Source: Pocillopora verrucosa
Taxonomy: Eukaryota; Cnidaria; Anthozoa; Scleractinia; Pocilloporidae
Reading direction: 5' to 3'
NCBI RefSeq assembly: GCF_036669915.1
Contig: NC_089325.1
Location: 1-64,000 of the forward strand
Length of the DNA: 64,000 nt
This document shows positions 11,096 to 39,135 of this stretch, one piece after another. Each line of letters begins with the position of its first letter. The first letter of the stretch is position 1. The translations under genes and the position numbers were made by a program. The notes under the pieces are model-generated. The model was not told the origin of the DNA, did no database searches, and saw nothing but the letters and a program-made list of their open reading frames with translations.

Positions 11096-12562
11096 ATGAA
11101 TGGAAGTTTCTCTGAAGATTCGCTCCTTAATTCCTCCCGATCCGTGTTCCCATGTCCAGGTGCTGCGCAGATTCGTGTATCAAAAGGAGAGGTATCAATT
11201 TCCCTTTACCTTGCGTTCATTGTCGGAGCCATTTCGTGTCCAAGTACAATTCTTTTGAACATTTTAGTGATCGTAACAGTATTGAAGACGAGAGAGTTAC
11301 GGACAAACTCAAACATTCTGCTAACTAGTTTGGCCGCCACTGATTTACTAGTAGGCTTAGTTCCTGCACCGCTAGCCATCGTTACAGATGCTTTGCATCA
11401 TCGAAGAACTGTATCGTTTCAAGTGACTTGTACGATGCGCAAGATTTACCTCTTTGCAATGCTCGCTACGTTCATCGCTTCATATAATCACTTGATTTTA
11501 ATTGCCTGGGAGAGGTATGTTGCGGTAGTTAGATGTTTGGAGTACAAGTTTATAGTTACAAAAGGACGCATTAAGAGAGATGTGGTAATTGCTTGGATTA
11601 CAGCCATCACAGCAACAGCCTTCTACATCGTATTCGACGCCGCTGGTGTTCAGTTGGAGGTCATTTTGGTAACGGACATCATCATATGCGTTCTTTGGTT
11701 AATTGGTTTTTTATTGGTGGTGTATTTTTATTTCATGGTTTATAAACAAATACGAAAACAGCACCGAAGTCAATTCCGTCGAGAAGACGCTCTTATCAAA
11801 GCAAGGATCGAAAGTAGAATCGCCTTTACGGCTTTTCTCCTAACATTTTTCGTGTTTGCCTCGTTTGTTCCTTTAATCGTTTCACTCTTTGCAAACTTGT
11901 CACTCATAGTGAAGCAAACTTGGCGATGGACACAAATTTTCGTCCAGGTGAACTCTCTAGTGAATCCTGCCCTCTATTTTTATAGGAACAGACGATGCAG
12001 GAAGGCTGCAGTTAAATTGCTGAAATTTAAAAAACCTCAGAAAACTCAGCCAGTACGCCAGACTAAGCTTCTTGCGAAAAGGCACCGGTACTCCATCGTG
12101 TCTCTGGATATCAAAGATTTTGTCGACACCGAAATGGCTAAACGGTCCCCTGCGCGCTCACAGTCTTGGGCGGCAGAAGCATTTGAACGCTGGATCTCCG
12201 TGCGTGGAGAACAAGATAAGGCAGTCGAGGATAGAAGAATATCATGTCCGACTTTAATAAACCATGGAAACTTGTTTGAAGTGACTCGACCTGTTACCAG
12301 AACTATCATTGTTCAGATTGAATATGCACGCCAAAAGAAACCATCAAAGAGGAGGACGAATTTATCGAATGATAGATACAATGCTAAAACATGCAATCAC
12401 CGCGGGATGCCGAGATCAGAGTCTTTGAATGAAAATGCACTAATCGTTTTGAAAAGTGGCCGTCCAAAACTAGCCGAAGTTAAGCATCATAGACGCAAAT
12501 CAGCGCCATTGGTTTTAAGAACTGAAAGCAATATTTTGAGAAAAGAAGAATTGCAACATTGA
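11096..12562 (+). CDS. Class A GPCR, orphan, with long basic cytoplasmic tail
   Basis: Intronless 488-residue seven-helix receptor. Two N-glycosylation sequons lie before TM1 (NGS at 2-4, NSS at 12-14). Hallmarks: Asn55 in TM1, Asp83 in TM2 (SLAATDLLVG), Cys112 at the start of TM3, ERY at 139-141, Trp167 in TM4 and NPALY at 290-294 in TM7. The C-terminal tail is unusually long, about 190 residues after TM7, and rich in Arg, Lys and Ser with many possible phosphorylation sites. The third intracellular loop is short. TM6 has ASFVPL rather than CWxP. It resembles the amine/adenosine-like cnidarian orphans, but the ligand cannot be inferred. The ATG at 11096 gives a normal extracellular N-terminus. 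It is not a close duplicate of the receptor at 4218-5255. Confidence 0.9.
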   Translation: MNGSFSEDSLLNSSRSVFPCPGAAQIRVSKGEVSISLYLAFIVGAISCPSTILLNILVIVTVLKTRELRTNSNILLTSLAATDLLVGLVPAPLAIVTDALHHRRTVSFQVTCTMRKIYLFAMLATFIASYNHLILIAWERYVAVVRCLEYKFIVTKGRIKRDVVIAWITAITATAFYIVFDAAGVQLEVILVTDIIICVLWLIGFLLVVYFYFMVYKQIRKQHRSQFRREDALIKARIESRIAFTAFLLTFFVFASFVPLIVSLFANLSLIVKQTWRWTQIFVQVNSLVNPALYFYRNRRCRKAAVKLLKFKKPQKTQPVRQTKLLAKRHRYSIVSLDIKDFVDTEMAKRSPARSQSWAAEAFERWISVRGEQDKAVEDRRISCPTLINHGNLFEVTRPVTRTIIVQIEYARQKKPSKRRTNLSNDRYNAKTCNHRGMPRSESLNENALIVLKSGRPKLAEVKHHRRKSAPLVLRTESNILRKEELQH

Positions 12563-15881: not shown

Positions 15882-18800
15882 TTATTTGGCATTTCTTTTC
15901 AAGTCGCGCGGTCTCAGCGGCTTTCTATCTTTAACTGTGCTTGCAACCAGATTCTGGGACTTTGTCTTCTTTAAGAAGCGTTTGCTGCTGTCATCTAACA
16001 GGCAACTTGACGCCGTCGACCGCGTAATTGTGCGACGCCGTGCAATCGAGGTCTTCGTTTTCTTTGGCGGCGTTATTTCGATGTTGTAAGCGAGGCTTTC
16101 TCTTCGCGAGGAACCTTCGTCTGGAGCTGCTTCATTAGGAAGATTTTCGTTTGAGCGGGACCGAAGAGATCCAAGTGCCGACTGCATGGCCGTGGCGATA
16201 CGCTGGGATCGTGGTTGTTTAGCTGGAGTAATGCTGGGGGCAGACTTAGATTTTGCTATACTCGGTCTTTCGCTGTTCTTTGGTTTAAACAGATTAGACG
16301 CACCTTCCACCGATTTTCTTTTGCGTGTGTTGAATGATTTGGCCAGTGACGCGTCCAAAGACATTCTTCCCGTTTTAAGCACATCTTCTTGCACAGAGAA
16401 GTCAGGGTTCATTTGAGTTTCTACCGGGTAAGATGTCTGTAGATGCGGCAGGCACGACGCATTCCGACGCTGCAGCTCGGCCAGTCGGTTCCAGTCATAC
16501 TCCACTTCAGCATCTTCCATTTCTGGTCCAAGCTCATCTCCCAGGATGAAGTATGCAGCACTGTTTGTAGTGCGTTTTTCAGGCGGGGTGTCACCTCGCA
16601 TGTAAATAGCACTCTGCCGGCGGCTGGCGCGAGTCTGAACTCCAGCCCTCAAGCTTGAACTTGAGGCCGAGTGCAGAGTGTTGAGAGATTTGTTTAACTG
16701 GTTACAAGCATTGCTCGGGAGTGTAGGCGCTTGCATGCTTCCCTTAACAGAGCTTGCAAAATCCGCTAGCTTCAATGGTGGGCCTTCGTCAGAATCAGTG
16801 GAGCTATCCTCTTCGAAAAACTGTTGTCGAGCGTACATTTGCGCTCTTTCCCCTTCAGTGGCCTTCCTTCGGAGCGACTCTATAATACTTTCGGACTCAG
16901 CAGAAGTTTGTCTAAGTTCTCGTATTTGTTTATCGGCATGAGCCAACTGTGCCTCCATAGAGTGTACCTCTGTGCCAAGCCGTCTGTTGATAAGAGTTTC
17001 CTCCTCGACTTTCTGCTCCAGTTGATTTTTCTCAGCTTGTAATTCCAGCATGTGATCTTTCAGCTCTGCAAACGCCTTCTCTGTCTCCTTCATTCCTTTA
17101 GAAGTACGCTTAAGCTCCTCTATCTTCGTCAGTAGTATCTTCTCTTTGCTTTCCCACTTAACTTCAGAATTTTTCACCACGTTAACTGCGTCCTCTTTCG
17201 ACGCCAGCGTTTCCTTCAACAACAAGTCAAGTTCTTCAACTTGTTTATCCTTTTCGCCAAATTTAGCTTCCAACTCAGCTATGCGCACTATCAAGCCATC
17301 TCTTGTCTCTTTTTCCTCTTCGATAATCTTGTCGATTTGTTCTTTCCCTTTCTTTTCCAACTCACTGTAATCCTTTTGCAATTTTTCGAGTGCTTCATAC
17401 TCCTGTTGTCTCTTTGTTTCTAATTCGTTGTAATCCTTCCTCAAGCTTTCAACCTCCTCTTGCACAGCGTTCGTCTCAGTTTGTTTGGCTTCTTCTAATT
17501 GACGTATCTCGTTCCTTGTTCGATCTTTCTCGGTGTCTGCTTCTTTCCTTAGCAAATCAACACTTGCTTCCAGCTCCTCTACTCTAATAACATAACTCTC
17601 GCATTTGCCTCTCAGCTCAACACATTTCTTGCGCTCCAATTCCAATTCTTCCTTGGTCGTCTCGAAACCACTGACTTCCAATTCTAGCTCAGCAACGATG
17701 CTTTTAGATTTCAGAAGCTGATTCTCCAAATGACCGTTGTCTTCTCTGGCTTTCCTCACTTCTTCGTCCAGCGTTTCTACTTCTACTCGCGCTTTCTTTC
17801 GAACTTCGATCAATTCGTCTGAATGCCTCTTAGAGTTTTCAAACATTTCGCTTCGCGTATTCATCACTTCCTCTGACAGTTGATCAAATTTCTTTTTCCA
17901 AGCTGTGCGCTCTGCGTCGCAAGCCTCCTGGATTTTTGCGGCGTTTCTTTCAGCTTCATCCAACATGGATTTCTGTTTGTTAGCGAAGGCCTCCTTCACC
18001 TCCTCGTACTCCTCCTCGAGTTGGTTAGTTTTCGTACGGAACTCAGAGGCAACCGCGGCTTTTTCTTGCGCCATACTAACGATCTTGGAATCTTTTGAAG
18101 AAAGGAAATATATTGATTAGAAATGTTCGCAGAAAGAGCGAAAGGCTGTTTAGAAAAACACCTGAGTCGGGCAGCACTATCGGTAAGAGCCGACCAAAAC
18201 AACCAAGTAGAGTGTTATCGCTAGCCAGTTACATTTTCCTCATTACTTAAGATAAATAACGCTGTTTTTGAAATACCATCGAAGAGATTCGTACAGCTGC
18301 AGTTTCCAACATTAAGATGGAATTTAAAGCAGAAATTATCAAGAAAAGGTTGCTCGAAGTATCATAGAAGTGGCTATATTGATAGGGGCTCGTTCTAACC
18401 CTAAGCAATCTCCTAATTACAGGGTAAACGATAACTTCCATCATAGAGAACAAACACACAGCAGGGTTCTAAATAAACATTGTTACTGTTTCCTATTTCT
18501 TTCCGTTCGAGAATCGCAAAATAAACTCACCCAATTCGCTTTTTAAGGCCGCTAGCATCTTCTCGTAAGTTTCTCTAACTTGATCCCTTTCTTTTTCCAA
18601 AGCTTGAATCTTCTGTAATCTATTCTCCAGTTCTTCCTCCAATCGCTGCCGCTGTTTGGTGAGTTCGTCTACCTCTTCTTTCATTAAACTCATTTCTGTG
18701 TCATATTTTAACTGGTTGTCATGTGCACGGGCATTGCTGGTTTGAAGACTGCCTTCCAAACCTGCTTTCAAATTCGCCAAGGCTTGTACTTCAATAGTCG

Positions 18801-21800
18801 TCTCTTGCAGCCGCTTTTCTCTGATATCAAGTTCTTTAGCAAGTTCTGCTTTTAGCAAGTGTTCTCTCGACAGAGCTGACTTCAGTTCTTCTACCTCTCG
18901 GAAACAATGTTCCTGTATATTCTTGAGTTGTTCGTCCATTTGTTCTCTAACAGAAAGAATGAGATAGAGAACTTATAATGTCTCCTAACATCAAAGTTAG
19001 AGAAAGAAGAGAAACAAAGACTTTTAGAATTGCATGTGGTAAAACCAAAGACAGAACAATCAAAAATGGCATGCAAAGCATACCAAACTGTCCGATGCGT
19101 GGAAAATTGCCACTGATGACCAACGATTACTCTTTCATTTGATTTGGACCTGACCAGTCGAAAAGCTGGCGCAAATTAGGGACCAACCAAGGTACAAAAG
19201 AAACCAGAAAACAGACCTCGAATGACTCTAAAAGTCGATCGTAACAAAGAAAGAATAGGCAATCGATGATAACTCTAAACTGTAGTAGTTCCACGACTAA
19301 CCAGCTCTAATGCACGACCGACACTAATGAAGCGTGGGTAAAGGCTAGTAATAAATCGGCTCTTGCATATTTCCTTGGTTGATCAATATCAATGCGTAAA
19401 ATTAGAAAATATCATCAAAAGACTGTTGATAATTACGTTTAACAGAAAGTGTAATAACTAGTCAAAGACTAAACGTATTTACTACCAGGGTTGACCTAGC
19501 CTGCGTAAGTGATGCTTTTTCGGCCATTTGATGAAGATAAAGTCGGCGGATACGAGAAGTTACGAGAACAACAACAATTGCAACAACGTGCTTTGCTCTG
19601 GCGCCTTAGCCTCTCAAAGCTCTAAAGTGCACCAAAAGGCCGCCAAATAAGCAGGCTAGGATATAACCGTGCATGATCATAGACAATACGATTGTTACTG
19701 TAGCTGCTTCCAACTGAAAAGAATAAGCGCGAGTTATTTTCGTAATAGACTGATCAATCAGCTTGCCGTTTTCACTTTTCCTTCGACTAAATAAGGTCAA
19801 ATCAAATCTTTATGTGAGTGCAGTATGCCTAGGCGGACCTCAAGCCTTCCATACTGAGTTCACCCAAATACTTGAGCATTACCTTTTATGAACTTCGACC
19901 GCCAGCTGATCTTCGAGTTCTTGGATCCTGCTTCTGGCGGTTACGTACTCTTCCTTTAAACGCAAAAATAGGTGAAATAAATAAATAACAAATTATCTCC
20001 TTTTCCTCGCCACTCCAAGCTTCTCGGTACAAGACAATACTGCCTAATTTCTTCCCTTTTCTTATCGACGACTTCCTCCACTTGACTAAAAAATTGTTGG
20101 CTTTATGTTATATCCAGCTGCTCTCATAGCGAGAAATTCTGACAGCATGGTAGTTTACGCGCGAATTGTGCGCACCACTGGCGTTCGAAACCCTCGGCTA
20201 CTCTTGACAAGGCCGGAATACTATTTATTTTTTTTTTAACATAACTGAGAATTATACCTTGTAAGAGGTCTGCATTTTCTTGGTGTCCTCCAAAGTCTCC
20301 TTTAAAGCCAGGTATTCTTCTTGGTTAACTGCTGTAGACAGACGCGACTCCAAGCGATTTTTCTCCAGTTCTAGTTCAATTACTCTGCTGTCGATGTTGA
20401 CAGCTGCCAATGGGGCATGTCGTCTTGGTGATTCGTCTTGGAAAGAAACAACAAACAGCGGTCTAGCAATAGCCATTTTGTTAACTTCGTGATGAGAATA
20501 AACAAAATTGAGGCTATTCAAAATAGTTAAGAGCTATCGTTTGTCTCACGACAAGGAAACTGACATAAAATCTGAAAGAAAGAACAAACCGTGGTCTAGC
20601 GATAGCCATTTTGTTAATTTCGTGAAAAGAATAAACAAAATTGAGGTTGCTCAAAATAGTCAAGTTCTATCGTTTTCTCATGACAAGGAAACCAACATAT
20701 AATCTGCGATTACGCATTGTAATTAAAACAACGATCTCTTGTAACCGGGAAAAGGGGTTATGAAGCCTGACCTGAAACTTACGGAGAAGCTCAATCACAG
20801 AACTTCTGTGACCCGAACAAGAGCGGGAAGTTCAAGTAGGAGTGCTCCCTAGCATTTACTCACGATCTATCATATTAAGCGTTAAGTTGAAAATACTGGA
20901 ACGATGACAATAATAATGATGATGTTAAAAAGAAACAATAAAACAATAATAGTGATACTGACGAAAATAGTAATAATAATTGTAACAATAAGTTTGGGTT
21001 AAAGAGCCTATTTATTACTTCAACATGAACCGAGCAGTTTCATGTAAAGACCGCAGAGATAACTGACTACATCCCGAATGCGCATATCGTTATATAATCA
21101 TTAGTGGCGCGCTCATTGTGATTGTTCAATTGCACGCGCCTATGTGCGCCACTTCTATATAGCCAGGTAATTTATGCCGGTATACCTCTAACAGTATTTC
21201 GTGACAATAATAATGATAATAATGATAATAACTTACAGCAAACAGTAATAATAACAAGAATGATGGTTTCCGTGTGTTTTCATAAATGTATTTAAATCTT
21301 CTACAAGGGTACTGGACAAACTTTATAAACTGAGTGATCAGTTTGGGTAGTTCTGATTAAAAATGATATCCCCCTGCTCAACGGTGCTGTCTGACCGGCC
21401 ATAATTAAGGACGTATTCTCAAAGCACGGAGATCAAAAGAAAAATCGTGTTTAAGTCCATGAAAAAACAACAGGAGGGTAGAAAAGCGAAAAAGAAAGAT
21501 TTGGTACGGTAGAAATGAAGCTTGAGGTGATTGTGAATATTGAGAAATGACTTTTAAACATGCACAAGGGATGATATTGTTTGCATGATTTTCAGTTTAG
21601 TGATGATGGTTACCTTCACTCCCCCTCAGCTCTTCATCATCAAGCGCCTTTGACCTCTGCCTCTCCATCCTAATTTCAGCAGATTTTGATGCAGCACTAA
21701 ACGCCTATGTTAGAGAATACAAATGGCTTCCATGATTATCTTTTGATTACAGAACAGAGAACTCTTTTTTTTTTTCCTGCCTTTGCAACGTGGGTCTCGT

Positions 21801-24800
21801 TCCCATGGCCCAGTAACTCGGTCAAATTCAAATTCAATTTATTTTCCTACATCGGACTTCTTATTGGTTGTTAAAACAACCATTAGTAACGAATAGATCA
21901 ATTGAGCAACGAGATTCCGTGCTATTTACATGAAATTAATAACCTGAGGTCAATTCGACTCATGTGAAGAACGACGTATGAAATGGTTCTCAACGAATCT
22001 TTGCGCGGCAAAGAGAAAGACGAGGTTGAGACGACTAAAACTAGAATTACATGTACCACAGGGAAGAGAGAACATAACTGGAAAGTCTTAATGGCAGCTC
22101 GTCCAGTGACGACTCTCTCTTATCTGCTTCCTCTTCATTCAAAGTTTTAAATTTTTATATTTTTTTATCTCCTCTTTTTGGTTCAGTTCTCAATCTCAAA
22201 TCTCCTCCCAATCAAACAGACTTGCTTCGCAAAACAACGCGGTAAAAGCTTCAATTTTTATTTCTGATTCTACCTATGGCAACACTTTTGTCGATTGCCT
22301 CTGGTTTATGACTTAGGGTTGGAGGAAGATCTATTTCCTTGACAAATGAGAGAAAATGAAATTAATTCACATCGTGTAACGGCGTGGATCTTACCTCCTC
22401 CAAATCTTTCTGAAGCGTTGCAATCATCTGTTCTTTCCTGTTCAATGTGGCCTCCAGTTCGCCTGTTCTAAACTCCATGTGATGAATCTTATTCTTGTAG
22501 CGGTCAACAATGGATTTTAAACGATCCGTTTCTTCTCTCTAACGGTAAATGTCGTGTTGTTTAGTTAGCGAGCGTGTAGAATCTCATTCAGTCGATATTA
22601 TGAAACAAAATCGTTGAAACTGAGACTCGAGCAGGCCGTGCGTGAAAGGAAACGTCTGTAATAGAGTGAATATGCCCACGACTGTCTTTTCCTACATGTG
22701 TGTAAGACAAGCAAAACACGCCCCCATCTAAAAATGACTTGCATCGCAAGACTTTCATCCCACTGGACACAAAGTTAAACATCTTTGGAATATGACCACG
22801 AGGAATACAACCAAACATTCCCCCATTTTGGCTCAGGTTAACTCGATCAAGTGACGTACATATATAAACCAATTGAGCGAGAATTAATTACCGCATTTGA
22901 AGGATTATCTTGAGCGATAATAAGAAACGTAAAGCAGTCACTTTGCAAGATATTTAGCTAGATTAGGTAGAGAAAAACCAAAGCGTCAATTGTAGGAGTT
23001 TCAAAAAAAGCAGGTTACCGTCGGCCACCGCCTGTTTAGGGTGCGAACTAGCTCTAGTGTCTGGGATTCGCCTTACGGCACGGCCACCTATTACAATATC
23101 GGCATCCGCGCATTGAAAAAGTTACATTGAAACCCAAGCAACTGAAGGAAAACTAAGTGAAAAAGAGACTTTTTGACACGGATTTAAAAATTTGAAATTT
23201 CCCAATTTAGGCGAAAATTTTCAGTTTGCTCAAACATTATAAATACACTTGAAGAAAACGAAAGCAAACGCAGCAATCACCTCTGTTATTTTACAGCATT
23301 AAAAAAAAAAAAAAAGCCTCACCTCTTTTTCAAATTGTTCCTTCTCTTGAATGAAAGTGGTAACTCTCTGCTCAAGATCTCCACACTGTTGCTTGAATGT
23401 CTGCAGTTCCACCACCTTCTGCTTCAACCTAAAGACAAGAAATGCGCATTGATTTATGGCTACCTGACAATGGTCGTGTTCCCCCTTCGTTTCTGATTCG
23501 AAAAAAGCGAAAACAAAGTAAGCGTTGGTCATCTTCGCTGCGAGACAAACTTCTCATAACACAAGATTCACTTCACCCTGCTTGCTTGGGGAAAAAGAGA
23601 CCTAAAATTATTTGCTGTTAAGGTCCACAGATCACACAAGAGAGACTTCTACTATTCGTTGCTATCGTTACCTGGCATTCTCTTTATTAGCCTTTTCGTA
23701 TTCATCTTTAAAGTGCCTCATAAGTTCCAATTCATCAGCTGACGATAGTAGTTTTGTGACCTCTTTGCGCAATTTTAAGATTGTGGCATCTAAAAACGGA
23801 GAAAAGGCGCGTTAAAGCCAAAAAAAACTTCGCAGGTCTTTAAACCCTTACTTCGGACATTTTACCGGCTTCCGAGCAACTTGGCCTTGTGCTGTTGTTT
23901 AGTGAAAGACTTGACCAGCTTCATATACTGCTGACTAGCATGCCTTCTCTTCCAGAAAAAAAAAGTGTGCGCAGTGTAATTCTTTAAAAATGTCAGTTTT
24001 AGATGTTTTCTCTGCTCTGTTTTACCTCTTGCATCAATCTCCTTGTTCTTTTCTGTAACTTCAGCCTCTAAGTCGCTTTGCAAATGAGCCTGTGAGTCTA
24101 AAGAGGCTTGTAGCTTGGTAACTTTCTGTTGCAACTTGTTCAGCATTAACTGCCAAAGACGAAGGAAGTAATTTTATTGTTTTCAGAAACTTTATTTTAC
24201 CTATTAGATGGGTTTAGTGTTAGATAGGTTCAGCAGAACGTTATCGGAAACGGGCAAACGACAAAAGTTCGACTTTTTCCCGGGTGTCCACGGTCGGTAT
24301 TACTCTAAAGCGAAGTTTTTCTTCTAATTAAGAAAACTAATTTCTCTTCAGGTTATTTTCCTGCAGGATTCTAGCCGGTCATCATGTTGTCCCTTGGCAA
24401 GACACTAAACTGTAACTGTGCCTCCCTCTGCCCAGGAGTACATGCAAAGATAGGTTCCGGCGAACTGTCAAAGGAACGTAATGAGATGTTGGGAGGGAAG
24501 GGGGATAAACTTCAATAGACTGACAACCCATCCAGGGGGAGAAGGAAAACTGCCAGTCCCATAATGCTACAAAAACTGGGATCAGCTTCGGCTGCATGGA
24601 CCACTTGGCTCCGAGTAGACTATACTCCTTAAGCTTACCCAGTTACATATTAAGGGAAAAGTTTCTTTGTTTTTTTTGCTTTCTTTTTCTCTAAATGTCA
24701 AGCATAGACACTGTGTCCTCTTCACTTGAATGTGACACTGGAGAGAAACTACATGTATTCAACACAGATTTTACTCTTCAGAAAACTGGGGTCTGAGCAG

Positions 24801-27800
24801 TAAAATCTTTAAAACACATAGACATACAAAGATAATGGCCTCTACATGATTGTATATTGTTCCCTGCCCAATGGGGAGTGCCTGTACTTGCAGGCGATGC
24901 TGCAAACAATCTTTTTCAAAACCCATTAGTTACTTAGTATCAAAACAGAATCATTATAAAGTTATGGAATAAAGAAAACTGACCTGATTTTGTTTGCTGC
25001 GTAACTGTGGAGACCCCACAAGAGATTTTAAGGGGGAATTGGTGAAAAAAGCCTCCACTGGTGACTGGACAGTTAAAGGTGATGGCATGTGATCAGAATC
25101 AAGGTCTAATTTTTGGCCTTCTACTAAATTCACTGCAAAAAAAAGAAGTGAGATGAAATGGTTGGCAAGTAAGTTATCTAGAAGTGGTACTTTCTCCACC
25201 AAGTATCACAGCACCAATTCAAAAATTTCCATCTATTCTATACTTTGTAAGTTATCTTGAAATACTCTTAGCCCTTGTTAGGCTCTGCTGTAAAAACAAA
25301 GACAAAAACAAAACCATTAACAAAGAAGAAATGTTTTCTGAATCAAAGTTTGAACAACTCTGCCTATCAAAAATTCCTGGATCTGCCTCTACCTATTTGG
25401 CAATTGTTCACCCAAGTGGGATGGCTAGCAGAGGACATTTACATGTACAGAGCCACAAAGCAGTAAGGTAAATATCCACTACTACGTAGCCATCTAAACT
25501 GAAGTGAATACAACTTGTAGTTGTTTTAGTTTATTCTAAAACAGTGAGACATTACAGCACAAAAAGGTGATTTAAATTTATTTCATCTGGCAAGAAATTT
25601 CAATTATTTTGGGCAAAAATCCTTAGAGTGAGTAGCCAATCAGAGAATGCCTTTGACACTACCAACTGTTTTAGTATAATACTATTAGTGTAATTGCTTC
25701 ATTGATCATAAAGATGCATACACTCTGATTGGTCCAGGACTGCGTCATATCTCACTATAATCACCTTGTGTGAGGTGATTATATTGATACGAGTAATCAA
25801 GAGAATTGTAACAAAAGATATGCAAAATGTTTCCTTCTTTACAGAATGGTTTCAACAACAGAATGAATTTACAACAGAATTCAAAAGCACTTGTTTGAGC
25901 AATCAAACTGAAACATTATTTTATTCACCTTAGGCTCAGCAAATATTGTTAAATAATACTTTAACTTCATCTTGGGATTATTAAACAATATTTGCTTTGC
26001 CCTCTTATTGAATAATTTTTAATATCACATATATGTCCATCAATTGACCAATATGTTCACCATGGCTATCTCATGTAGTACAAAAGATGCACTTTATCTA
26101 AGAAACACGTTATTTTAGCTGCACACATTCTTTTTACTCTCTGTTATTTCAATTCCTGTAAAGCTACATTCATGTACAACTCACCTTGTTTGCTTAAAAT
26201 GTTAGCAAAGGATTCAGCTGTGAGACAACCTTGTTCCATGTCAGTAAACACAGATTCAATCAGGAATTTAAAACTGAACTGATCTTCAACATCCATTTTG
26301 GTAATCTGATCCACAAATACAGCTACATTATCACACTGTGTTGCTCCACAAAGTAACAGTGTAATAACCTGTAGAAGAAGAAAACCATGAGGGTATAAAT
26401 TTTTGTGACCTTTGACCTTGCAAGTACACATGCTGTTTGAAACAACTTCTAGTGATCCACAAGGTCTTAACCCTTTCACTCCCAAGATCTGATTGTTAAT
26501 TCTCCCCTCTAACTGGCACACAATTCCTTGTAAATAAGTTATGAGAATTTGGTGTTAGATCAAGGTAACAACTTCTTCCTGATAAGTTTGAGTATTCTCA
26601 TTGCCTGGTGGCTGGATAATGTACGGATATTATAGGGGGAAGTTGCAAGTTAATCACTTCTGGGAGTTAAAGGGTAAAATGTCTCACAGCTCATGCCAAG
26701 CCTGGTAAATATTGGGTGGAAAGAAGTTCAAAAAATTTTTAAGGCAGAAAAAATTATAAAGTTGACAGCTACCGGAAGTTTGATCCTCACTCTAACATTG
26801 TTATTTTCAGAGAAAATAGGTGGTCATTTGTGCTGACATACAGTAGACAGCAAATTCCACTGGTTAACAACTCTTATTGAAACCCCTGGGTGGACACAAA
26901 CAATTTAGCAGTTCAATCATAGGTGAGACATTTTTTTTCATTTGCCAAACTTGTTTATCAAGCAAACATATAACATTTCATATACTCATCTAAGAAGATC
27001 ATCTAAGAATGAAAAATAATAAGAGTAAAAAAAGGGAATCAAGCAACCTTTGCTATTTCTAGTTCATTTCTGTTCCTGAGATAATCTTCATTTATAACAG
27101 AGTAAAAGTCCTGGCGGTGAAATCCTGAAAGGAAGAGAGTTAAACACAGAAATTTTTTCATGTGCTTACTAAATAATTTTTTTCATTTATTTCACATGAA
27201 TGGGGGAAAAAGTGCTAAATTATCTCATTATATTTATCATTAATTTCTCAGGGACCCACTGAGAAGAAGCCCATGTCACATTTCAGCCACGAAGCCTGAC
27301 CCCCCTATGACTAAGCCCCTGGTGCTGAAGTGAGAATGACAGTCTATGCACAAGTTAGTAACTATGTGTAATCAAAAATTTGCTGCCATCAAAAATTTGT
27401 AAAATATGGTCATCACTGCTTTCTGCTCATGGTCATTCTCTCCACAAGCCTTAATATATTTTCCAAATATTAACAGTCTTCAAAAGCAACCCAAGTTAAA
27501 TCTCAGCTCATTACTACGCTCTACTACCCATTGATTTTTTACAACTTTCAATTGTCTAACCCTCTCCCCTGTTTCAACATTTACATATACATAGCCTCTT
27601 GCAATATTGATTGGGAAAAGAGGAATTTTTGAGTAACTTTCTAATTATGAATTACAAGGTTTCTGTTCATCATGTTGATTGAAGGGTTGTGGACCACCGA
27701 GTGAGGGGAGGGTGCAAACTACATGTACCTTTCCCCACCCATTGCAGATAGTAGCTATAAAAAAAATTTGTTAATACATAATACAGGTCACAAGTTTCAG

Positions 27801-29286
27801 GTCTGCTTATACAGCAGAACCCTGCTTTGTTGCAAACTCAGTAATTTGGTCACCTAAAAATTACAGCCACTTTTTATGTCCTGGCAAAACAGGAATACAC
27901 CTTCTTATAAAAAAAAACCCTCATTAACATTCTAAAATCCTAAATAGTAGAGTCCTTCAAAACTTTACCCCTTTAATACAGCCACTAGCACTTAAAATAA
28001 AATGCCTGTGACATGTCATTGTCATTGTTCTCTGTCATTTCCTAATCAAAGAGTGATTTTACTTTACAGCCAAGAAAGAAACCCTCCTTCTTTATTTATT
28101 AAAATGTTAAAGGAAAGTAAATCTTGACCTTAACATTCTCTTGGGCAAACTGCAAAGTGATAAAAAATAAAATTTGACCCTATCCCAGTGATACAGCCTC
28201 CTGTATGGCAATTTGTTTTGGCCCATTGGTGACAGTATTAACAGGATGCCTTAACATAATTGCCAGTTGTATATTTGATTTAAACTTAATCAAATTATGA
28301 CTCTTACATACCCTTTAGGTAGGAGATAATCAGTGACAATACTTGCTCAAGTTGGAATTCATCACTGCCACCTGGAAGATCTTTGACTGTTTCCTTGTCA
28401 CTAACAGTTACAATATGGATGACAGGGATATTTAAGTGGTGTTCAGAAGTATTGAAAAGAGTAACAAACACAAAATTTTGAAAGCAAAGAATTGGGTGGC
28501 GTTTAAAATAGAAGAAATAAAACATAACAAAATTAATATAGGCAACACAATAATGCCTTGTTGTGAGGAAAGACTGGTAACCAAACCGTGTTGTTTGGGA
28601 ATGCAGAAAAATGTGAATAGCTACGTGTACGTGTGGTACAAAACAAATTTCAGACTCAGGTTTCCGTCACTTATAATTACAGCGCACATAAATCAAAACT
28701 ATGTACCGATGAGTAATGTGAAGGATAAACAAATGTATCGAATGAGTTTCATTTGTCGAAGCCAATTCATGGATTTGGGGGAGATTGAGGAAGCAACATG
28801 AAAAATACAAGATCAAATCGCCTCCCAACGAACGTACATGTACATGCATGTAGCTTCACCGACTCTCGCCGATCCTCGTCTTTTATAGCTGGTGGATGCA
28901 ATGGTAAATAGAGAGAAGATTTTTTTTATACTTAGTACTTACATTAGATGTATAATCTTGAGCAACAGGTTTTTACTTCCCGGATCCGTAATGTTCTCGA
29001 TTTTCTCTTCTTCGCGTGAAGCATTTGCATTGATCTGTAAATTATCAAACAAAGACGGGAAATGAAACAAGAATAATTTGCGTTAATTTTGCTGTAAATG
29101 GTAAAAATTTCTTTATATTTCAGTCAGTTCTGCAAATGGGAAGAGATCAAGAGAAATGTATGCTGACGAATGTACAACTCGAATGAAGTTTTAATTTGGC
29201 TACGAGCACTTTTAGTACATTGGAAATGCGAAAAATAACGGATTACTCACCCAGTTCAACAAAAACTTGGAGCTGGCCTCATTCAT
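15882..29286 (-). CDS. NUMA1: NuMA, nuclear mitotic apparatus protein, complete 15-exon gene
   Basis: NuMA links dynein to cortical LGN/Pins and focuses spindle poles in mitosis; it is nuclear in interphase. My model has exons 29251-29286, 28943-29034, 28312-28400, 27048-27124, 26185-26368, 24984-25132, 24026-24149, 23672-23789, 23323-23428, 22395-22538, 21614-21704, 20258-20436, 19883-19953, 18531-18946 and 15882-18091. Every intron is GT-AG and all phases close, giving 1,361 residues (human about 2,115). Residues 1-160 align by eye with the human hook-like domain (LLNW near the start, ELEIAK before a hydrophobic helix). A coiled coil runs from about 210 to 1045. DWNRLAELQRRN (1158-1169) followed by PHL and YPVE matches the human LGN-binding segment. 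TRKRKSVE is a likely nuclear signal. QRIATAM and RRESLAYNI (from 1288) match the human C-terminus. The shorter length reflects a shorter coil. The start at 29286 matches the human N-terminal pattern. Confidence 0.93.
20440..20715. repeat. Direct tandem duplication inside a NUMA1 intron
   Basis: Two diverged copies of a roughly 135-bp unit start near 20440 and 20575. Shared words include TAGCCATTTTGTTAA, GAATAAACAAAATTGAGG and CATGACAAGGAAAC or CACGACAAGGAAAC. The left copy begins at the exon 12 acceptor region. Confidence 0.7.
20890..21260. repeat. AAT/GAT-rich simple repeats in NUMA1 intron
   Basis: Interrupted runs of aataat and gataat words (about 20900-20995 and 21205-21260), of microsatellite type. 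No function is implied. Confidence 0.5.
24367..24645. mobile_element. SINE-like interspersed repeat in NUMA1 intron
   Basis: The plus strand reads CCTTGGCAAGACACTAAACT, then GCCTCCCTCTGCCCAGGAGT, TCCGGCGAACTGTCAA, CCCATCCAGGGGGAG, CATAATGCTACAAAAACTGGGATCAGCTTCGGC and GACCACTTGGCTC. From memory this is the diagnostic order of a widespread marine-invertebrate SINE core. No RNA polymerase III promoter was identified, so the copy may be 5' truncated. Family assignment is by recall only. Confidence 0.55.
25930..26005. repeat. Short inverted repeat in NUMA1 intron
   Basis: GCAAATATTGTTAAATAAT pairs with ATTATTAAACAATATTTGC across a loop of about 20 bp, typical of a small foldback element end. Confidence 0.55.
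26468..26676. repeat. MITE family 1, copy 2, in NUMA1 intron
   Basis: Reverse-orientation relative of 9131-9340. It begins TTAACCCTTTCACTCCCA, contains CTGATTGTTAATTCTCCCCT, and ends TGGGAGTTAAAGGGT. It lies just upstream of NUMA1 exon 5 (26185-26368), within intron 4, and does not disturb the splice sites. Confidence 0.7.
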
Positions 29287-29641
29287 TTTGGAACTCCCAA
29301 GGAGCTTACTCCGCAGAATACGTTAAAATAGTCCAAACAGAAGCAAGATCGAGAAAACGCACAAATCGAACCGCAAAATAGAATGTAAACTGCTTAGAAG
29401 ATTTGGCGGTTGATTTTGAAATTGACACGATTAATCCCACAAAGCTTAGCGCGGTGTGAATGTGTGTGTATGTGCGGCTGAGAAACCAAGCCTGCTACGA
29501 TTAAATTTCCTGTGAGAAGATTTTGCAAGATCCGTCGTATGTGAAGTATCGTGCCTCGAACTATTTTCAGGTTTTGAAGACATTTGGTTCCCTGAAACTA
29601 GCTTAACTCTTCGTTAAACAGTCTGTACTAGCCTTCCAGGA
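29287..29641. promoter_or_regulatory. Shared (bidirectional) promoter of NUMA1 and LAMTOR1
   Basis: The start codons of the two divergent genes are separated by only 355 bp, so both core promoters and 5' UTRs must lie here or within first introns. I see no obvious TATA box at a typical distance. Bidirectionality is inferred from geometry. Confidence 0.75.
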
Positions 29642-32600
29642 ATGGGGTGCTGTTTCAGTGGCGAGGAAAGAACTGATGGCTCTGTAAGTGAGGTTTTCAT
29701 GTTTCTTTTTCGTATAGGATCAATTTGTCATGTGACTGTCAGTCTTTTTCGGGGCCTGAGAATCGAATATTATTTTTTTCGCCTTCTTTGTAGATTTCTT
29801 TATATCTTTTCTACAGGTATATGTATTGTGCCTGTGTGATTATTCGTGTAGTTTGGAACCTCTGTTGTCTGTCGTCTGATTATCGTAACGTACATTGTAA
29901 TAATGCAATGATCAAAAGATCCTAATAAACTTTAGCCGAAACTTAACTGAGCTGATCTGTATTTTCTAATCATAGTGAGGTGATTATGATAGAAAACACT
30001 GTTAGAAAAAAATTCAATAGTTTACGTCATTGGGTCAACAATCACTCAGTGATTACAATATTATACTCTTTATAAGTGATCTGATCAGGTCTGCCTCTTC
30101 GAATTAGGTAATTAAAATAGCAGCGTATAAATCTTACTAGGCTAAAATGTACCTGATTGTAAAGTTATTCAAGAGATTGACTTATCTACAAAATTGATGT
30201 GTATTTTCTGCAGAGGCAAGCAACTGAGAGAGATCCATTACTAGGAGGAACATCAACACCAATTACCAATGGACAGAGACCAGTGTGAGTTGATTATTTC
30301 GCATTTGCTGTTATTTTGTATGATGCCATTTAGCTGCTTAGGCCAGGGAGGAAAGATAGGAGGTCTTGTGACCATCTAAGTATTGTCTCATTGCAATATT
30401 TCAAGGTTAGAGAACCTCCAAAAGCACAGTGTTTTTATTTAATTGGCATACCTTTTAGCTCAAAGTACAGTCAACTCTCGCCCTGCAGACACCTTGCTAT
30501 TACAGACACCCTGCCATTGTGGACAAGAGCCAACCCCCTTCCCACTCCTCAGCAAAATGCATAAGGAACTGACTGAAATAAACTCCTGTTATTTCAGTTT
30601 CTCGCTATCACAAAAAGGAAGACACTTTTATGCCCTCCAGCACAGTATTTCATTTGTATTTTCTTTCTCTGTTCTGGACACTTGAGAAACTTGTCCAAAA
30701 CCTGACTCACACATTATAAAGCAACATTAAAATAACAAAAGAAATCATTTTTTAAAATGGGTGCAAACAGGAGAATTTCCTGCTTGCAGCAGCCAGATCT
30801 TTTTCCAGTTTATAAGGCGACATTTAAAAATATATGTTCGCTTAGTTACTTATTATTTCATATGTTTAGAGACAAAACAATTGTTTTTCTCTCGTACCCC
30901 ACTATTACGGACTCTCAATCTCCTCTCTGAGGGAGTCCAAAATAATGGGAGTTGACTGTTTAAGGTTTTACCTTTGCTGTCACCCTCAATCTCTCTGAAG
31001 AATATTTCTATCCAGTTCAGCACGGGAATGAGCTACACTTGTAATTAGCCTATGTGTAGCCGTACCCTCCCGTCCAAGATGAAACAAAGGCCAGGGAATG
31101 TCTACGCAAACCTGGCACTAATTGAGTTCAGTTGACCGGTTTTCTTCTTGAGAAGAGAGGTGATCAATCACTGGCACTGCTTGATATATTAAAGAATTCT
31201 CTATAGCCAGTTGGTAACAAAACAGAAACATTGTTACCTTTGAAAAACATATCTATGGCTTTCTGCTGTTCTTCTTGAAATGTCTCTGGCCCAAAAGTCA
31301 TGCTAACTTGCCTTAAAACCTCATCGTAGATGGCTGTTGTCTGAGAAGTTGTCTATGAAAGCATTTTTTTCACCATCTTGTTTGCAGTGTTCTCCTTTTC
31401 AGGTGGTAACCAGTAACATTTACCGTCTTTAGTACCTCTTATTACTGTTTAAAATTGCTTAGAATTCTTGAAATTCAACAGGTAAAAGGAATGCTTTTCT
31501 GGTTTGAAAATTTATTTTACCTGTCATGCTTAAAATAAGGGAGAACACTGTGTTTGCTAACTAGTGTCAAAATAAATTACCAACTTTAGCCAATCAGAAT
31601 TGAATCAAAGTGCTCTGTGAGCAAACTCGTGAATTGACAGGTGACTAACATGATTTTTTGGATTATGTTTAATGTTATCTGGTTTAGGGAATTTGTAGTT
31701 GATTGTCATATTTAGAGTATGAGCAGTAGTTCAGTGTTCACTAATGTAGCAAAGAAACAAAGTAACATTGGGATAAGAAGGCATTACAATTGAAATGATC
31801 ATGCTATTACATTTGACAAGGGTGGATGATGGCATGTGTTTTAAACTTATATCATTTTTGTTTCTGGTTCAAAAGAAAAGGTTGGAAGTAAATATAGGTG
31901 AAAAGTGAAATTTACTGTCTATCGTTGTAAATATTGGAAAATCACGTCAATACTGTCTTAATGACAACATTAATGATTCCCTCTTTATCAAATGAGACAA
32001 ACAGGAATGAGTTTTGAGTGCTATAACTAAGCCCAGACTGCCACTGTCATTTTGGATTTTAATTTTATGAAAAATGAAGGTTGTTCTCATTTCAGTGTGA
32101 ATCCTCGCACACCTGCCAGTCACTGGCACTGCTTATTGAAACTAAAACGAAAAAAAAAATCCTTTTAAGATTATCATTGGCTTCTTTTTCACCCCACCAT
32201 TATTCTTAGCAATAAAGGTTGCCATTTTGTTTGTTTATTACTTGCCAAAAACTACCAAATGCACTCAAAAGCCTAAAATCAAAAAAAAGTTTTCAGGAAT
32301 CGATCGAGCGAGCAAGCGAGTGCTATTCTCTACAACATATTTACAACTCGCTCTTGTGCATGCACACAATTCACAAGTTAAAAAAGAATTGGCAAAAGGG
32401 GTTAACCAATAAACAGTCATTATATTTTTCTTTTTTCGCAAAAGAGGGACATCATGGAACACAATAAGTGTTAGGTTTGCATAGACATTTCCTTGCCTCC
32501 ATTTCACCTGGGGGGTGAAGGGTATGGCTACATTTGTTATATGAGCCTAGAAATTTGGGTCTTTATCAAGAGGAGACTTTGTTGTTCACTTTCACACTAA

Positions 32601-35600
32601 TTTTTATGAATTTAAAATATCTTGTCGTCTTTTTTTTTTCCGGAATTGCTGAATGAGCAGAGTTCCAAAACACAATCACAAAACTTCTCTGGTGGGAACT
32701 TATTAAAAGACATGTGAAACCCAAACAAAAAAATAAAACATGTCCACCCATTCAAGTAAATTTATGTTACTTTATTTGTTGTATGGTGAAATTTACTTGT
32801 AACCTAAACTCTATGTACACTGAACTTAACCCAGTTTATCTGGCTTGCATCTTAATACAACAGGCATGGAACATTACAGATTCAATGATATATTAAGTAA
32901 CTTAATTGTTTTAAGAATGCTTGCAATTGAGAGGACCAGTTAACACTTATACTAGTTAACAATAAACAACTGAAACATTCATGGTATTCTTAGTCTGTGA
33001 CTTGGTTTCATTTTCAGTGATGATGTACTCAACCATAGTTCTGGCCCAATATCCAAGACAGATGAACAATCATTATTAAGCAGAATACTTCATCAAACTG
33101 CACAGTATGTAATTTTTCTTGTTATAATCATCTGTCATCAAACTGAATGAGTATGAATCTTGTGTTTGCACATTGGAGGGTTGTACATGGCTACAAGAGC
33201 TGGGAACTGGTTTACTTGCCTGGCTAGTTGTTGTTAAGGATTTTGTTGGTCACTCGATCAGCCTTGAAGCCAAGACTATGTCAAAAGGATAATTTAACCA
33301 TTCAAAATTTTGCTTATTATATCAGCCATTAAGCCAAGACTCTCTGAGGAAGATTAATGAGTACAAATTGATTAATTCTATGAATGTAAAGCTTTCTGTA
33401 CAAACACCATCTTATATTTAACCACTGTATCATCCTGTTTCAAAGTTGGTGAAAACCAGAAACTTGATTTCAGTTCTCCATGGGATACCATCAATATTGT
33501 CACAAGACACACATTGCCTGACTGTACAGCTTAACCCTTTCACTCCCAGGATCTCTTTACTAATTCTCTCTACTTTCTGCCATAGAATTTTTTTATGATG
33601 TTAGTTTGGAGAATTTGGTTTTCACCCAATAATCCTGAAAAAAAATTTTTTTGTGATTCTCCTCACTTATCTGCTTGATATTGTATTGATATTTTAAGGA
33701 GATATTCTCTCATGATCACTCATGGGAGTCTAAGGGTTAGATGTGACATAAAATTGTTTGAAATTTTCACAGTCAAGGATGAAATGAAGAAAAGTTTTGA
33801 ACTTGAATGGTATGAGTCTTGCCTCCTCTTGCTTTGAATGGAAACAGAGCCTGTACAACTTGAGGATTTGAACTTCTATGTTTTGAATTTTTTTTTTGTC
33901 AGGTGATCCTCAGAACATAATCATGTGACACATGCAAACTAATAACATTACTTATGTTGCAGCAAAGTCATAGATGTCTCCTCAACAGAACCTCACAGTA
34001 TAGAAAGAACGGAATACATGGAAAGATCCAGACAGTACATGTAAGTGTATTGACACTGAGAACACAACAGTATCATTGGATATTCTGATAATGAAGGGAA
34101 GCAATTTTGGTGCGTTGAAATACATGGATCAGTTCATATAAATATGGCTGAATTTCACAATGCTTAATGCACAAAATATTTTTAGATGATCTTAACATTT
34201 TCTCAGTTGAATTAAGTGTACAACAATGATAATACCTGCAATTGCAAAAAATGTAAAGGAAACTCCGCCTAGTGCTGAGTCACTGGGCTATAATAAGATG
34301 ATTTTTTTTGTTTTTTGTAAATTGGCTTCTGTAAAGAGTTTCTCAAGCTGACATTCAAGCATTAGCACTTCCCTCTGCAGTTATTTTAACACTTAGGTTA
34401 TATTATTAGATAGAATTATGCACCCAAACTTAACCCTTTAACCCCTAAGAGTGAAAGAAAACAAGGCAGAACCTCACAGAAACTCACAGAACTGTTGCAA
34501 GGGTAGTAAATCACACATTGATGTCATGAGAATAAAGGAAATGGTCACCAACTAAGGAAACTCTTGATTGTTTGACTAATTCTCCTTGTCAGCACCTTAG
34601 TAAATGTATAGAGAACAGTGTGGAGAATATGAATACTGATGTTAAGGTGTAAAGGGTTAATATTGATCTTTCACTAAGAAAACTCTAGTTAGCCAAGAAA
34701 ATTATCTTGAAGGGTGAAATGTGAACTCTGTTGAATGAGTAAATAACAATTACATTTGACAAGAGCTGATTATGCAAAAGCCCTAGTGACATTGGCACAT
34801 TGGATTTAGTCTGAGTCTCCATGACCATCTGACCATGCAGCCACAGCTCTTGTTAACCTTTCACAAATGTTATTGGGCTTCCAGGTCAAAATTATCTGCT
34901 GTTAATGGTTCAGCACTACATAACAGTTCCAATCTTCCTGGTGGAGTGAAGGCACCTTCGTCAGTGTTAGCTAGTGAACCAATACCACAAGGAGATGTCG
35001 CATTTGTAAGTGTTTGATTACTGTTGAAGAATCTGATGGCCAATGTTTTTGAGTCCCGAATTAATTGAAACCGTCCTGTCCTTACAACAAACTCTCCACG
35101 GCATAGTGCTAGCATGTTGCAAATCCAGGAATCAGCTGGTAAGATTAAGTCTGCTTTTGGGAACAGTTCTGGAAAAAAAAAGGTCAAAATTATAAGGAAT
35201 ATTAAGAAATGGACACCAGAACTGTATTTGTTAACCCACTTAAGTACTTCTCCCTCCTGAAAAATTCAAGTTGTTTAGAACATACATGTATACATGTACT
35301 ATCTTTGAAAGGAGGTAGAGTGGAACTGTAACAGACTATTTTTCTCTTGAAGAATGGTTTTAAAATCTAAAGAGCAAAAACACAGAGGTTTTAATGAAAG
35401 GGGGTTACTGACAGTCTACCGCCACCTGTAAGACATCTCACCACTGTCTTAGTACAAAGCAGGCTGCATTTCTCTTTACAACCACCTACATTTGTATTAC
35501 ACTGTCAGCAGCCACATGTGGAAAAATTTACTGTAACCCCGATGTTTTTTTAACCAAATCTTACATTGAGATTTTGAGAACTTGCACAGTCATGTTTTGG

Positions 35601-35814
35601 TATCAGTTCTTCTCTAAAGCAGGGAGTTCTTATTCTCAGTGGTAGTGTTACCATTTTTGTTTCTTATTGGAATCTGTGAAATGAAACAAAAAATGAAAGG
35701 AACAATGTTGCTTTATTTCAGGCAATCCAAGCAGCTAAAGGAGCAGATGCATCATTGTCTGGGTTCCATGTTGAACATAGAGATGCCCTTGTGGTACAGT
35801 TTGAATCATCTTAG
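29642..35814 (+). CDS. LAMTOR1: LAMTOR1 (p18), Ragulator subunit, complete six-exon gene
   Basis: LAMTOR1 wraps around the other Ragulator subunits and anchors them, with Rag GTPases and mTORC1, on late endosomes and lysosomes. Exons are 29642-29683, 30214-30284, 33018-33104, 33963-34040, 34885-35005 and 35722-35814. All introns are GT-AG and the phases close to give 163 residues (human 161). The N-terminus MGCCFSGEE keeps Gly2 for myristoylation and Cys3/Cys4 for palmitoylation. DPLLGG supplies the acidic dileucine-type signal. Conserved blocks in order are KTDEQSLLSRILHQTA, VIDVSS, EYMERSRQY, VLASEPIP and the C-terminal ALVVQF. Each matches the human protein by eye. Introns carry several MITEs that leave the splice sites intact. 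The gene is divergent from NUMA1 with 355 bp between start codons. Confidence 0.95.
30468..30958. mobile_element. MITE with CAGTCAACTC termini in LAMTOR1 intron 2
   Basis: The left end CAGTCAACTCTCG and the right end GGGAGTTGACTG are inverted repeats about 490 bp apart. Subterminal words ACAGACACC and GGACTC recur inverted. The preceding TA resembles the target of Tc1/mariner/pogo-type elements, but the right flank is not a clean match. Non-coding. Confidence 0.6.
33531..33740. repeat. MITE with TTAACCCTTT ends, LAMTOR1 intron 3
   Basis: Begins TTAACCCTTTCACTCCCAGG and ends ATGGGAGTCTAAGGGTTAG. The ends match family 1, but the interior is strongly diverged. Confidence 0.6.
34431..34660. repeat. 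Second MITE with TTAACCCTTT ends, LAMTOR1 intron 4
   Basis: Begins TTAACCCTTTAACCCCTAAG and ends GGTGTAAAGGGTTAA. The termini resemble family 1, but the interior is unrelated, so it is probably a sister family sharing the terminal recognition sequence. Confidence 0.55.
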
Positions 35815-38400
35815 GAATTTCTGATGTTGTAGAGAATGAAATATTTATTGAAATTGAACCTTCCATTATTGCGCCTACCAGTAATTACGAGTAATTTCCA
35901 GAGCAACTTACATCAAAAGATAAGTAAAAACAGTAAAAGGAGTATGGGAACAACTTTGGTTGAGCCTCCACAGCCTCCTGCCTCTTGCCACTCCCATAAG
36001 GGCAATGAAAACTAGTCCCATGGAATTTTTGCTGAACAGTAATAGATTTGAAACTGATAGGAGTAGGTGCTGGACTTAAACAAAAGTTTGTCAATAAGTA
36101 AACAAGATGTTGCATTCAAAGTGACTATAATTATGGATATTTAATTCAGAGAGTAATTCTTAATTGATTGTCAAAACACCTGTAGGCAGGGTGTGGGTTG
36201 GTTTTGCTTTACTCTACTCTGCTTTTTGGTACAGGAAACTTGCATTGCTTTTTCAACTGAGCATATTCAATATTTAATGGAAAAATATCTTGCTTACACT
36301 GAATTTTCCTGCACTTTAAATTTGTTAAACTTTTTGCTCTGATTCCTCAAGCAATTTTGTTCTTTTTTAATTTGATTACATGTACTTGATCTTCATTGTA
36401 CAACACCAACCTGAAAGGCATTCTGCTCTTATTTTATGGGATAAAATTTTGAACATGGTGAGGAAACCTTTTGGAACTTTTCATGTGGTAAAAATGTGAC
36501 TCATGAAAAGTTCAAATTGCAAAGCAGGTTGGGAAGGAGGTGGGGTGAGGAAGGGAGAGAAGTGGAGGGGAGGGGAAAGGGGAGTGTGTCTCGCAGCTCA
36601 AAAAAGATGGAAAAGACGTAAACTTTAAGCCTCAGTGTGTTATGGAAATATATTTTATGAGTATTTCACTGAAAATTACTTCATAGGATTTAGCATGTCA
36701 CACCTGGGAATTGATATGCTGTGTTCAGTAATGAGTGATGCTACGTTGTTGTCTTGGTAAATGTTTACAGGTATTTCTTAATTAAACTCAAAGCAAAAAT
36801 AGCAAAGAAAAAAAGATGTAAGCTATCAAAGATAGTTTAGAGAGGTATTCCGATTTTCAAAAACATCAAACAATTTCCTGCTTGTAAAAGCATCCTTTTT
36901 TTTATCCATCAACTCTCAGAGGTAAAGTAACTTCCATGTGGCTTCTAATAATTTTAATAAAAAATCCTTCAAATTGGTGATCAAAGTAAGCAGATTTACA
37001 AACAAAGTTTTATCCTTAGAGAACATCATATGGTCCTATCTTATTTACAAGGACATATGTGGCAGCGGGGAGGGGAAAGTCATCAATCTCATTCTATGAT
37101 TTTAAGGGTTATTGCAGAGCTTGCCTGAATGTCAGGGACCAGAGGATTTTGGTTGTAGTGCTGTAAAATTTACTTGATCCCCCTCCTCTCTCACGTGATA
37201 AATAATGACTGGTCTTAGAAGGGGTGGGGTGGGGGGGGGTACTTGTGCAAATCTACTAGAGTTGGTTTGCCATCTTTCTCATCTGTTCACCTTGGAATCA
37301 TAACATGTCATTTCCTGTACCCATTTCAAACCTGGTTACTAAAATCCATACGGTGCTACTTATAGTCAGACCATAATCTTAAACTATACTTTTTTGGGGC
37401 ACCACTCACCCCTCTCCCTACCTCCCTTTCCCACTCCTCCCTTTCTTCCTCTTACCCCCCCCCCCCCCTTCATACTCGTGTTATCTGAGTGCAATAGGAT
37501 ACTCTTTGATTTACCCTGATACTATATAAAATATGCTGGAATCAGCTTGCATAATCAATCTCAAAAAGGCATCGCACCAGAAATAGAAAAGAAAAGGAAA
37601 AAAGAATGAGGAAACAAAGCCACTGACTATACCTATAAGGGCAGCTAAAGCTGGGAGCCCTGCGGAAGTGCATAGGGCCCTGTCCTGTATCAGTTAGAGT
37701 GGCTTCGTTTTTTGTTTTTTGTTTTTTTTACATGAAAACGTTAATATGAATAAGGTTGTAAACCAATCTCTGCAGCGGCGCATTTTTACATAGTGGGATC
37801 CTTGTGTAGGATTATCATTTAAACTTTGAAAACTGTAGAGTTAGGTGTAACTTATACTGTTCATAGATTATTTTGATTAAAAAAATCACACATGGAACGA
37901 TGCGTGTACGTTTTTTTTCCTTTCTATTTTTGGTTTGTTTATTTGTTTTTTTTTTGTCATTGTCTCGTCCTTGTTGTTTTCCTTGTTGTTTTTTTCCTCT
38001 CAAAAGGCGGAATGTTATAAGGGTACAACTCAACTGGTCAAATTAATGAAAAGATTCCTTGTAGGTGCTTAATTCTGACGCAAGTAAATTGTAGCAAGAA
38101 AGAGAGAGGAGATATAAAATGAAAAGCACAATAACCGTGTTACTCTCAGAGGTGAGCATGTAACTTCTCGCTATAATAATATCCATACATTATCCAGCAA
38201 ACAGTTAATGAGAATACTCAAACTTAACAGGTAGAAGTTGTTATCCTGATCGAACACCAAATTCTAATATCTTAATTACGAGGAAATGTCTCGCAGCTAG
38301 AGGGAAAAATTAACTGTCAGATCATGCGGCTGGAAACACGTGCTCTGTTAGTTGTCTGTTCAGTTGGGAGGCGGGGCAACGTTGCATGCACGAACTTCAA
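35815..38400. other. Intergenic with G-rich tracts, homopolymers and a diverged MITE
   Basis: Purine-rich G tracts at 36527-36600 and 37218-37245 and a poly-C tract near 37456-37470 could form quadruplex or i-motif structures. A diverged copy of MITE family 1 lies at about 38147-38330 (ATCCATACATTATCCAGCAA shared with 9131-9340). No supported gene. Confidence 0.5.
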
Positions 38401-38706
38401 GTTCCATGACTAATTAGCTCTGTTGATATGAGATCAAATTCGTGTGGCAAAAGAACGGAATTTTGCGCAAGGACTGATTGAGTACAAAAAGGAAGAGGTG
38501 TCGGTTTATTGGAATGCACTCGTTTGAAATTTTAAAAAGCTCCTCTGTGGTTTTGAAACGGTATAGACTCGATAAGAGGCTCGTTTTTCAATGGTGCAGT
38601 TGCGTTTGCAAGCGAGGTTTGGAATTGTGTACTACTTCGAAAGTTGAAAAACATCCAGAAGTCAAAGAAGAGGACGCACTCGGCGACTGAAGAAGCTACC
38701 ACAAAA

Positions 38707-39135
38707 ATGGAAACTTCTTTGAGAAACGACCAGAAAACTCCGAAAAATGCGACCGGACCAAAGCACGACTTTTCGTCGTCGGGCAGAACAAGTCCAGCAC
38801 AGGAACAACCTAAAGTTTCAACACCAGATGGCAGTGATGCTTCGCCTCAAAAGAGCCCAAGCTCGGCAAACAAGATAAAGAGTTTCTTTCAGGATTTACA
38901 GCGCGAGTCCCGCCACGCTCTGACGAACAAGAAAGCCAAAATAATCCAGTTGTGGGAAGGAAGAAGATGGCGGCGAATGAGCTTGGAAGAGGTTGAGCCT
39001 TTTGCTGAAATGGAGGAAAAAGAATTATCATGCTACGGAGAGACTGAGCGTTTGGGATGCAACGCTAGTACAGATGACAATTCTTATAAGACCGGAGGAC
39101 ATGTCGACGGCATCATGGTCGAAAATCGCTGCTAA
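38707..39135 (+). CDS. Hypothetical 142-residue protein, single exon
   Basis: The first ATG of the frame is at 38707 and begins METSLRNDQKTP; the frame is open upstream to about 38644 without an ATG. The protein is hydrophilic. The first half is rich in Ser, Pro and Lys and looks disordered. The middle has a basic amphipathic stretch (SFFQDLQRESRHAL, then KKAKIIQLWEGRRWRRM), and the tail is acidic. A polyadenylation signal AATAAA is at 39350. I recognise no family. It could be a lineage-specific gene or the last exon of a longer transcript. Confidence 0.45.
   Translation: METSLRNDQKTPKNATGPKHDFSSSGRTSPAQEQPKVSTPDGSDASPQKSPSSANKIKSFFQDLQRESRHALTNKKAKIIQLWEGRRWRRMSLEEVEPFAEMEEKELSCYGETERLGCNASTDDNSYKTGGHVDGIMVENRC

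Follow-up and report, generated by a model that had tools for sequence, protein, structure and literature searches.

When two genes have remained close to each other over several hundred million years, this points either to slow rearrangement or to a regulatory constraint, and the locus described here raises the question of which of the two might apply to NUMA1 and LAMTOR1, which lie next to each other on opposite strands of the Pocillopora verrucosa genome with exactly 355 bp between their start codons. An initial annotation of this DNA had described this divergent arrangement, and it is confirmed here. The arrangement most likely reflects a retained ancestral linkage that is real and ordinary in kind, and on present evidence inherited proximity is more likely than a common promoter. 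The window, by which we mean the whole stretch of 64 kb that was analyzed, is the beginning of scaffold C14 (22,355,786 bp, or 6.3% of an assembly of 353 Mb and 52 contigs), and its features are collected in Table 1.

Judging from its predicted protein, the gene downstream of the gap is LAMTOR1 of Ragulator, as both the family profile and a full-length match are present. The protein scores 48.2 bits against the Pfam LAMTOR family (PF15454; cut-off 25), and its best match in a PDB search is 6b9x_A (E 3.3e-26), with residues 1-160 aligned to residues 1-158; the 9 distinct sequences matched at E up to 0.001 are LAMTOR1 chains of solved Ragulator structures. Its N-terminus, MGCC, is aligned to the MGCC of 6b9x_A and is what we take to be the N-terminal lipid attachment motif. 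A whole-genome family search with PF15454 gave no matches in this genome, because introns split the LAMTOR domain over exons.

The gene on the other strand is NUMA1, the predicted protein having the N-terminal hook domain of that family. Its exons were predicted from sequence alone using a home-made script with splice and codon scores, and the predicted length is about 1,360 aa after one script exon (28888-28838) was dropped as spurious. The N-terminus matches HOOK_N_NuMA (PF21670) with 53.6 bits (cut-off 27) over positions 4-152 of the 152 in the profile, in a model that has two weak splice sites; these are the acceptor of the exon at 28400-28312, which a script bonus favored, and the donor of the exon at 27124-27048, which the script likewise favored. 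A long Glu/Lys/Leu-rich sequence is visible in the translation of the middle of the gene, and the coiled-coil exons of the model are approximate. When the first 207 aa were compared with PDB sequences, two designed proteins were the only matches (E 0.0049 and 0.08), and a NuMA chain was absent. For the C-terminal tail of 327 aa, a PDB search allowing E up to 10 gave NuMA chain 6hc2_B and nothing else, a weak match (E 0.66) in which YDWNRLAELQRRN of the window is aligned to DDWNRIAELQQRN of 6hc2_B, a core of 13 residues being nearly identical; the matched segment is presumably part of the LGN-binding region. A Pfam search of the last exon and tail gave no matches. Overall, the PF21670 and PF15454 profiles, the 6b9x_A match, and the exon models bear out the earlier naming of both genes. 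In addition, two collections of prokaryote or virus DNA were searched in the faint hope that animal contigs had strayed into them: genome contigs for LAMTOR1 relatives (65 pattern matches, no relatives) and viral contigs for relatives of the last NUMA1 exon (4 pattern matches, no relatives).

Table 1. Features of the window (positions counted from its first letter) and extent of the copies of the region on scaffold C14.
Feature	Position	Strand	Description and basis
NUMA1 gene	15882-29286, from ATG at 29286 to stop codon at 15882	-	about 15 coding exons; exon model
First five exons of NUMA1, with the hook domain	29286-29251, 29034-28943, 28400-28312, 27124-27048, 26368-26185	-	exon model and PF21670
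NUMA1 last coding exon, with LGN-binding-like helix	15882-18091	-	exon model and 6hc2_B match
Gap between start codons, candidate divergent promoter	29287-29641		355 bp, between NUMA1 and LAMTOR1 start codons
LAMTOR1 gene	29642-35814	+	6 coding exons, 163 aa
LAMTOR1 coding exons	29642-29683, 30214-30284, 33018-33104, 33963-34040, 34885-35005, 35722-35814	+	GT-AG introns
Cluster of TRIM-like genes or pieces	41325-43039, 47974-50239, 55705-57249	-	RING, B-box, filamin repeat, NHL; beside NUMA1-LAMTOR1
Mutator-like transposase	45691-47523	-	open 610 codons; PF20700, E 2e-82; between TRIM-like genes
DUF6570 open stretch	63307-63753	+	PF20209, E 3.3e-10
Rhodopsin-class receptors, two open stretches	4218-5306; 11045-12562	-; +	PF00001
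Open stretch with strong coding signal	38593-39129	+	Pfam search without match; presumably resembles a divergent HMG-box
Copies of the region	window from 1719 on; C14:22,200,018-22,260,614; C14 from 270,862 to 286,100 or further

The location of the window in the first 64 kb of its scaffold and the threefold presence of the NUMA1 region on C14, with two of the copies ending at 100-N gaps, might suggest that NUMA1 and LAMTOR1 were joined by an assembly artefact. However, the window contains no N, and a second copy repeats the divergent arrangement, in inverted form, with LAMTOR1 exons that encode the same protein as those of the window, so that such an artefact is extremely improbable. Of the 100 kb examined at the far end of C14, the portion up to 22,260,614 holds this second copy, which corresponds in inverted form to the window beginning at 1719, with 98.0% identity over 1719-33319 and 95.0% over 33318-42641; beyond 42,641 it consists of shorter, partly repeated blocks (of at least 400 bases, 79.5-94.8% identical) up to 57,332, and it ends at a 100-N gap (22,260,615-22,260,714). 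Its identity per kilobase ranges from 91.9 to 100% over 1.7-42.6 kb of the window, with peaks at 16-25 and 29-32 kb, and from 92 to 100% around the pair. Blocks of the TRIM-like cluster have repeated matches in the far-end copy.

A protein search of the genome with the last NUMA1 exon found at least three places (60 of 79 candidates scored), each of them on C14, at 282,369-284,600, at 22,244,093-22,246,324, and in the window, and the N-terminal 207 aa gave 12 exon matches, all at these same three places, while a 396-base LAMTOR1 probe found two, the window and 22,225,984 on C14. The third copy, of the NUMA1 region, begins directly after a 100-N gap (270,762-270,861); its identity to the window is 89% close to the start of NUMA1 and 100% across 5,232 bases at the end of that gene. 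That this NUMA1-only copy at 271 kb is a split pair was ruled out, since the match stops at the gap. The three NUMA1 copies are most likely unmerged haplotypes, because the copies end at gaps and their identity is mosaic, and we infer a single NUMA1-LAMTOR1 locus that has been observed twice with the pair intact.

On the human map, the minus strand carries both NUMA1 and LAMTOR1, with the NUMA1 start facing LRTOMT/LRRC51 and LAMTOR1 within the LRTOMT span; ANAPC15 and the FOLR genes, the latter near ANAPC15, follow LAMTOR1, and SPCS2 lies about 3 Mb from NUMA1. If this map holds, the head-to-head orientation is not conserved in human and the proximity is. Published gene lists, which come without strands, substantiate the vertebrate proximity stated in the initial annotation and place the two genes near each other in a distant clade too. 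As far as the available parts of these sources go, NUMA1, LRTOMT, LAMTOR1, ANAPC15, RNF121, and IL18BP are listed together for human 11q13 ('71561-72385'; PMC4657880) and for chicken chromosome 1 ('195-196'; PMC10976558), both genes of the pair are placed at 11q13.4 in PMC3966786, and lists for buffalo and horse include the two in wider regions (PMC7863760, PMC8532986). Strands for the pair are absent from the available text of PMC3561653 and PMC3783845, and that of PMC5462536, on zebrafish Tomt, mentions neither numa1 nor lamtor1. The papers naming both genes that the literature search returned are gene lists of genomic regions; no paper in the literature searched brings NUMA1, LAMTOR1, and synteny together, and a description of the two as a conserved pair was not found there.

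Macrosynteny was checked by family-profile searches of the same coral genome for neighbors from human 11q13. The one match for ANAPC15 (38.1 bits, cut-off 27), which begins MATSSATFPSLLPRVADNLWFTLEKK, is at 6,431,544 on C14, the same scaffold as the pair but 6.4 Mb away. For SPCS2 (PF06703), the one match is on another scaffold, C4. In the Folate_rec family, 11 matches exceed the cut-off, of which the best lies on C14 at 7,008,969, 0.58 Mb from ANAPC15, and the other 10 on C9, C1, C10, C8, and C7. A search of this genome with PF09507 (POLD3) gave no matches, and the ATG16 model PF08614 proved unspecific, with 6 matches of which one is over the cut-off (within a frame of 3,707 codons on C6) and one of the five below it is on C14. 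This placement of neighbors is mixed and mildly favors an old chromosome linkage with scrambled order; by arithmetic, there is a 12% chance that C14 is hit by at least one of the two single-copy tests. The claim of deep microsynteny with vertebrates therefore stands in part: the proximity in human and chicken and the presence of ANAPC15 on C14 agree with it, whereas at the level of a block SPCS2 on C4 and the distance of ANAPC15 from the pair count against ancestral linkage.

A reasonable explanation would be that a single ancestral chromosome already carried NUMA1 and LAMTOR1 near each other, and that their proximity has persisted both here and in vertebrates. The persistence of the pair would come mainly from slow rearrangement without breakage, the two being housekeeping genes inherited as neighbors, and at least one local inversion or insertion (that of LRTOMT in vertebrates) would later have altered the layout in one lineage. 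The gene identities, the 355-bp spacing, the human and chicken intervals, and ANAPC15 on C14 support ancestral linkage, and the best Folate_rec match near ANAPC15 is counted in its favor as well; we give retained proximity through common ancestry of the linkage about an even chance of being correct. A random gene pair would be found within three genes of each other in about 3 of 10,000 cases, according to arithmetic with an assumed 20,000 genes. Counting against ancestral linkage, the comparison covers one non-vertebrate genome, and the choice of the pair was post hoc.

This post hoc choice and the location of SPCS2 on another scaffold might suggest pure coincidence, with ancestral linkage at no scale. 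In the available parts of Robert et al. (2022; PMC8851819), 162 new blocks are reported for the cnidarian-bilaterian ancestor compared with 17-25 in shuffled genomes, of which vertebrates lost 85%, and the vertebrate ancestor inherited 70 blocks of at least three genes compared with 110-124 in shuffled genomes. Because so few old blocks survive there, old microsynteny would usually be lost in vertebrates, which argues somewhat against NUMA1-LAMTOR1 being old. However, the low expectation for closeness within three genes and the scaffold shared with ANAPC15 speak against coincidence, which we regard as unlikely. The two genes could also have been on the same ancestral chromosome without being adjacent, and have come close independently in vertebrates and here. 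The order on C14 is scrambled relative to human, with ANAPC15 as the example; if one chromosome is assumed to hold 1,000 genes, a single named pair would fall within three genes by chance in about 0.6% of cases, and several pairs were open to choice. For one pair this chance nevertheless remains small, and an independent approach of the two genes is possible rather than probable.

Retained proximity leaves the role of the gap to be considered. The 355 bp very likely house the core promoters of both genes, because space is lacking, and we infer that promoter sequence would be shared here. This divergent spacing, together with a CpG observed/expected ratio of 1.1 in the gap (GC 0.417), might suggest that a selected bidirectional promoter common to NUMA1 and LAMTOR1 links spindle orientation with lysosomal nutrient signaling and has held the pair since the cnidarian-bilaterian ancestor. 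However, the human order has both genes on the same strand with LRTOMT in between, hence no common promoter there, and if this order holds, a common promoter cannot explain the vertebrate proximity. Furthermore, a simple-pattern scan of the gap found one CANNTG and no CACGTG (CLEAR/TFEB type), ETS, NRF1, E2F, YY1, CRE, CCAAT, or TATA pattern. The two functions are not known to us to require co-expression, and co-regulation of spindle orientation and nutrient signaling would not be deduced from the features of the gap. A common promoter as the cause of the adjacency, which the initial annotation had suggested, is not supported, and we consider it rather unlikely.

The gap is 100% identical in the second assembly copy at 22.23 Mb on C14, as is the first LAMTOR1 intron, and the second intron is identical at 2728 of 2733 bases. 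Identity of the gap between assembly copies as a sign of constraint was ruled out, since the adjacent introns are equally identical and identity is mosaic from one kilobase to the next. A more elaborate history, in which the ancestral pair was divergent with one promoter, vertebrates kept the proximity and lost the promoter via LRTOMT, and the regulatory unit was preserved in the lineage of the window, is distinctly unlikely. If the head-to-head layout recurred widely, the gap would be a candidate common promoter for one mitotic and one lysosomal gene.

Retained microsynteny is well known as a kind, and the pair can be set beside three known systems. It is similar to bidirectional promoters in that the start codons are 355 bp apart on opposite strands, but differs in that NUMA1-LAMTOR1 is known here from its sequence and simple motif patterns alone. 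It also resembles the NUMA1-LRTOMT-LAMTOR1-ANAPC15 interval at human 11q13.4, as the same two genes are in close proximity, although in human they are on the same strand with LRTOMT between them, whereas in the window they form a direct divergent pair. Finally, the pair resembles animal microsyntenic blocks, in which, as the available parts of the study describe them, orthologues are kept near each other across cnidarians and bilaterians with neither order nor orientation required; those blocks need at least three genes (Robert et al., 2022; PMC8851819), whereas the present case comprises two genes in one non-vertebrate genome, with ANAPC15 megabases away.
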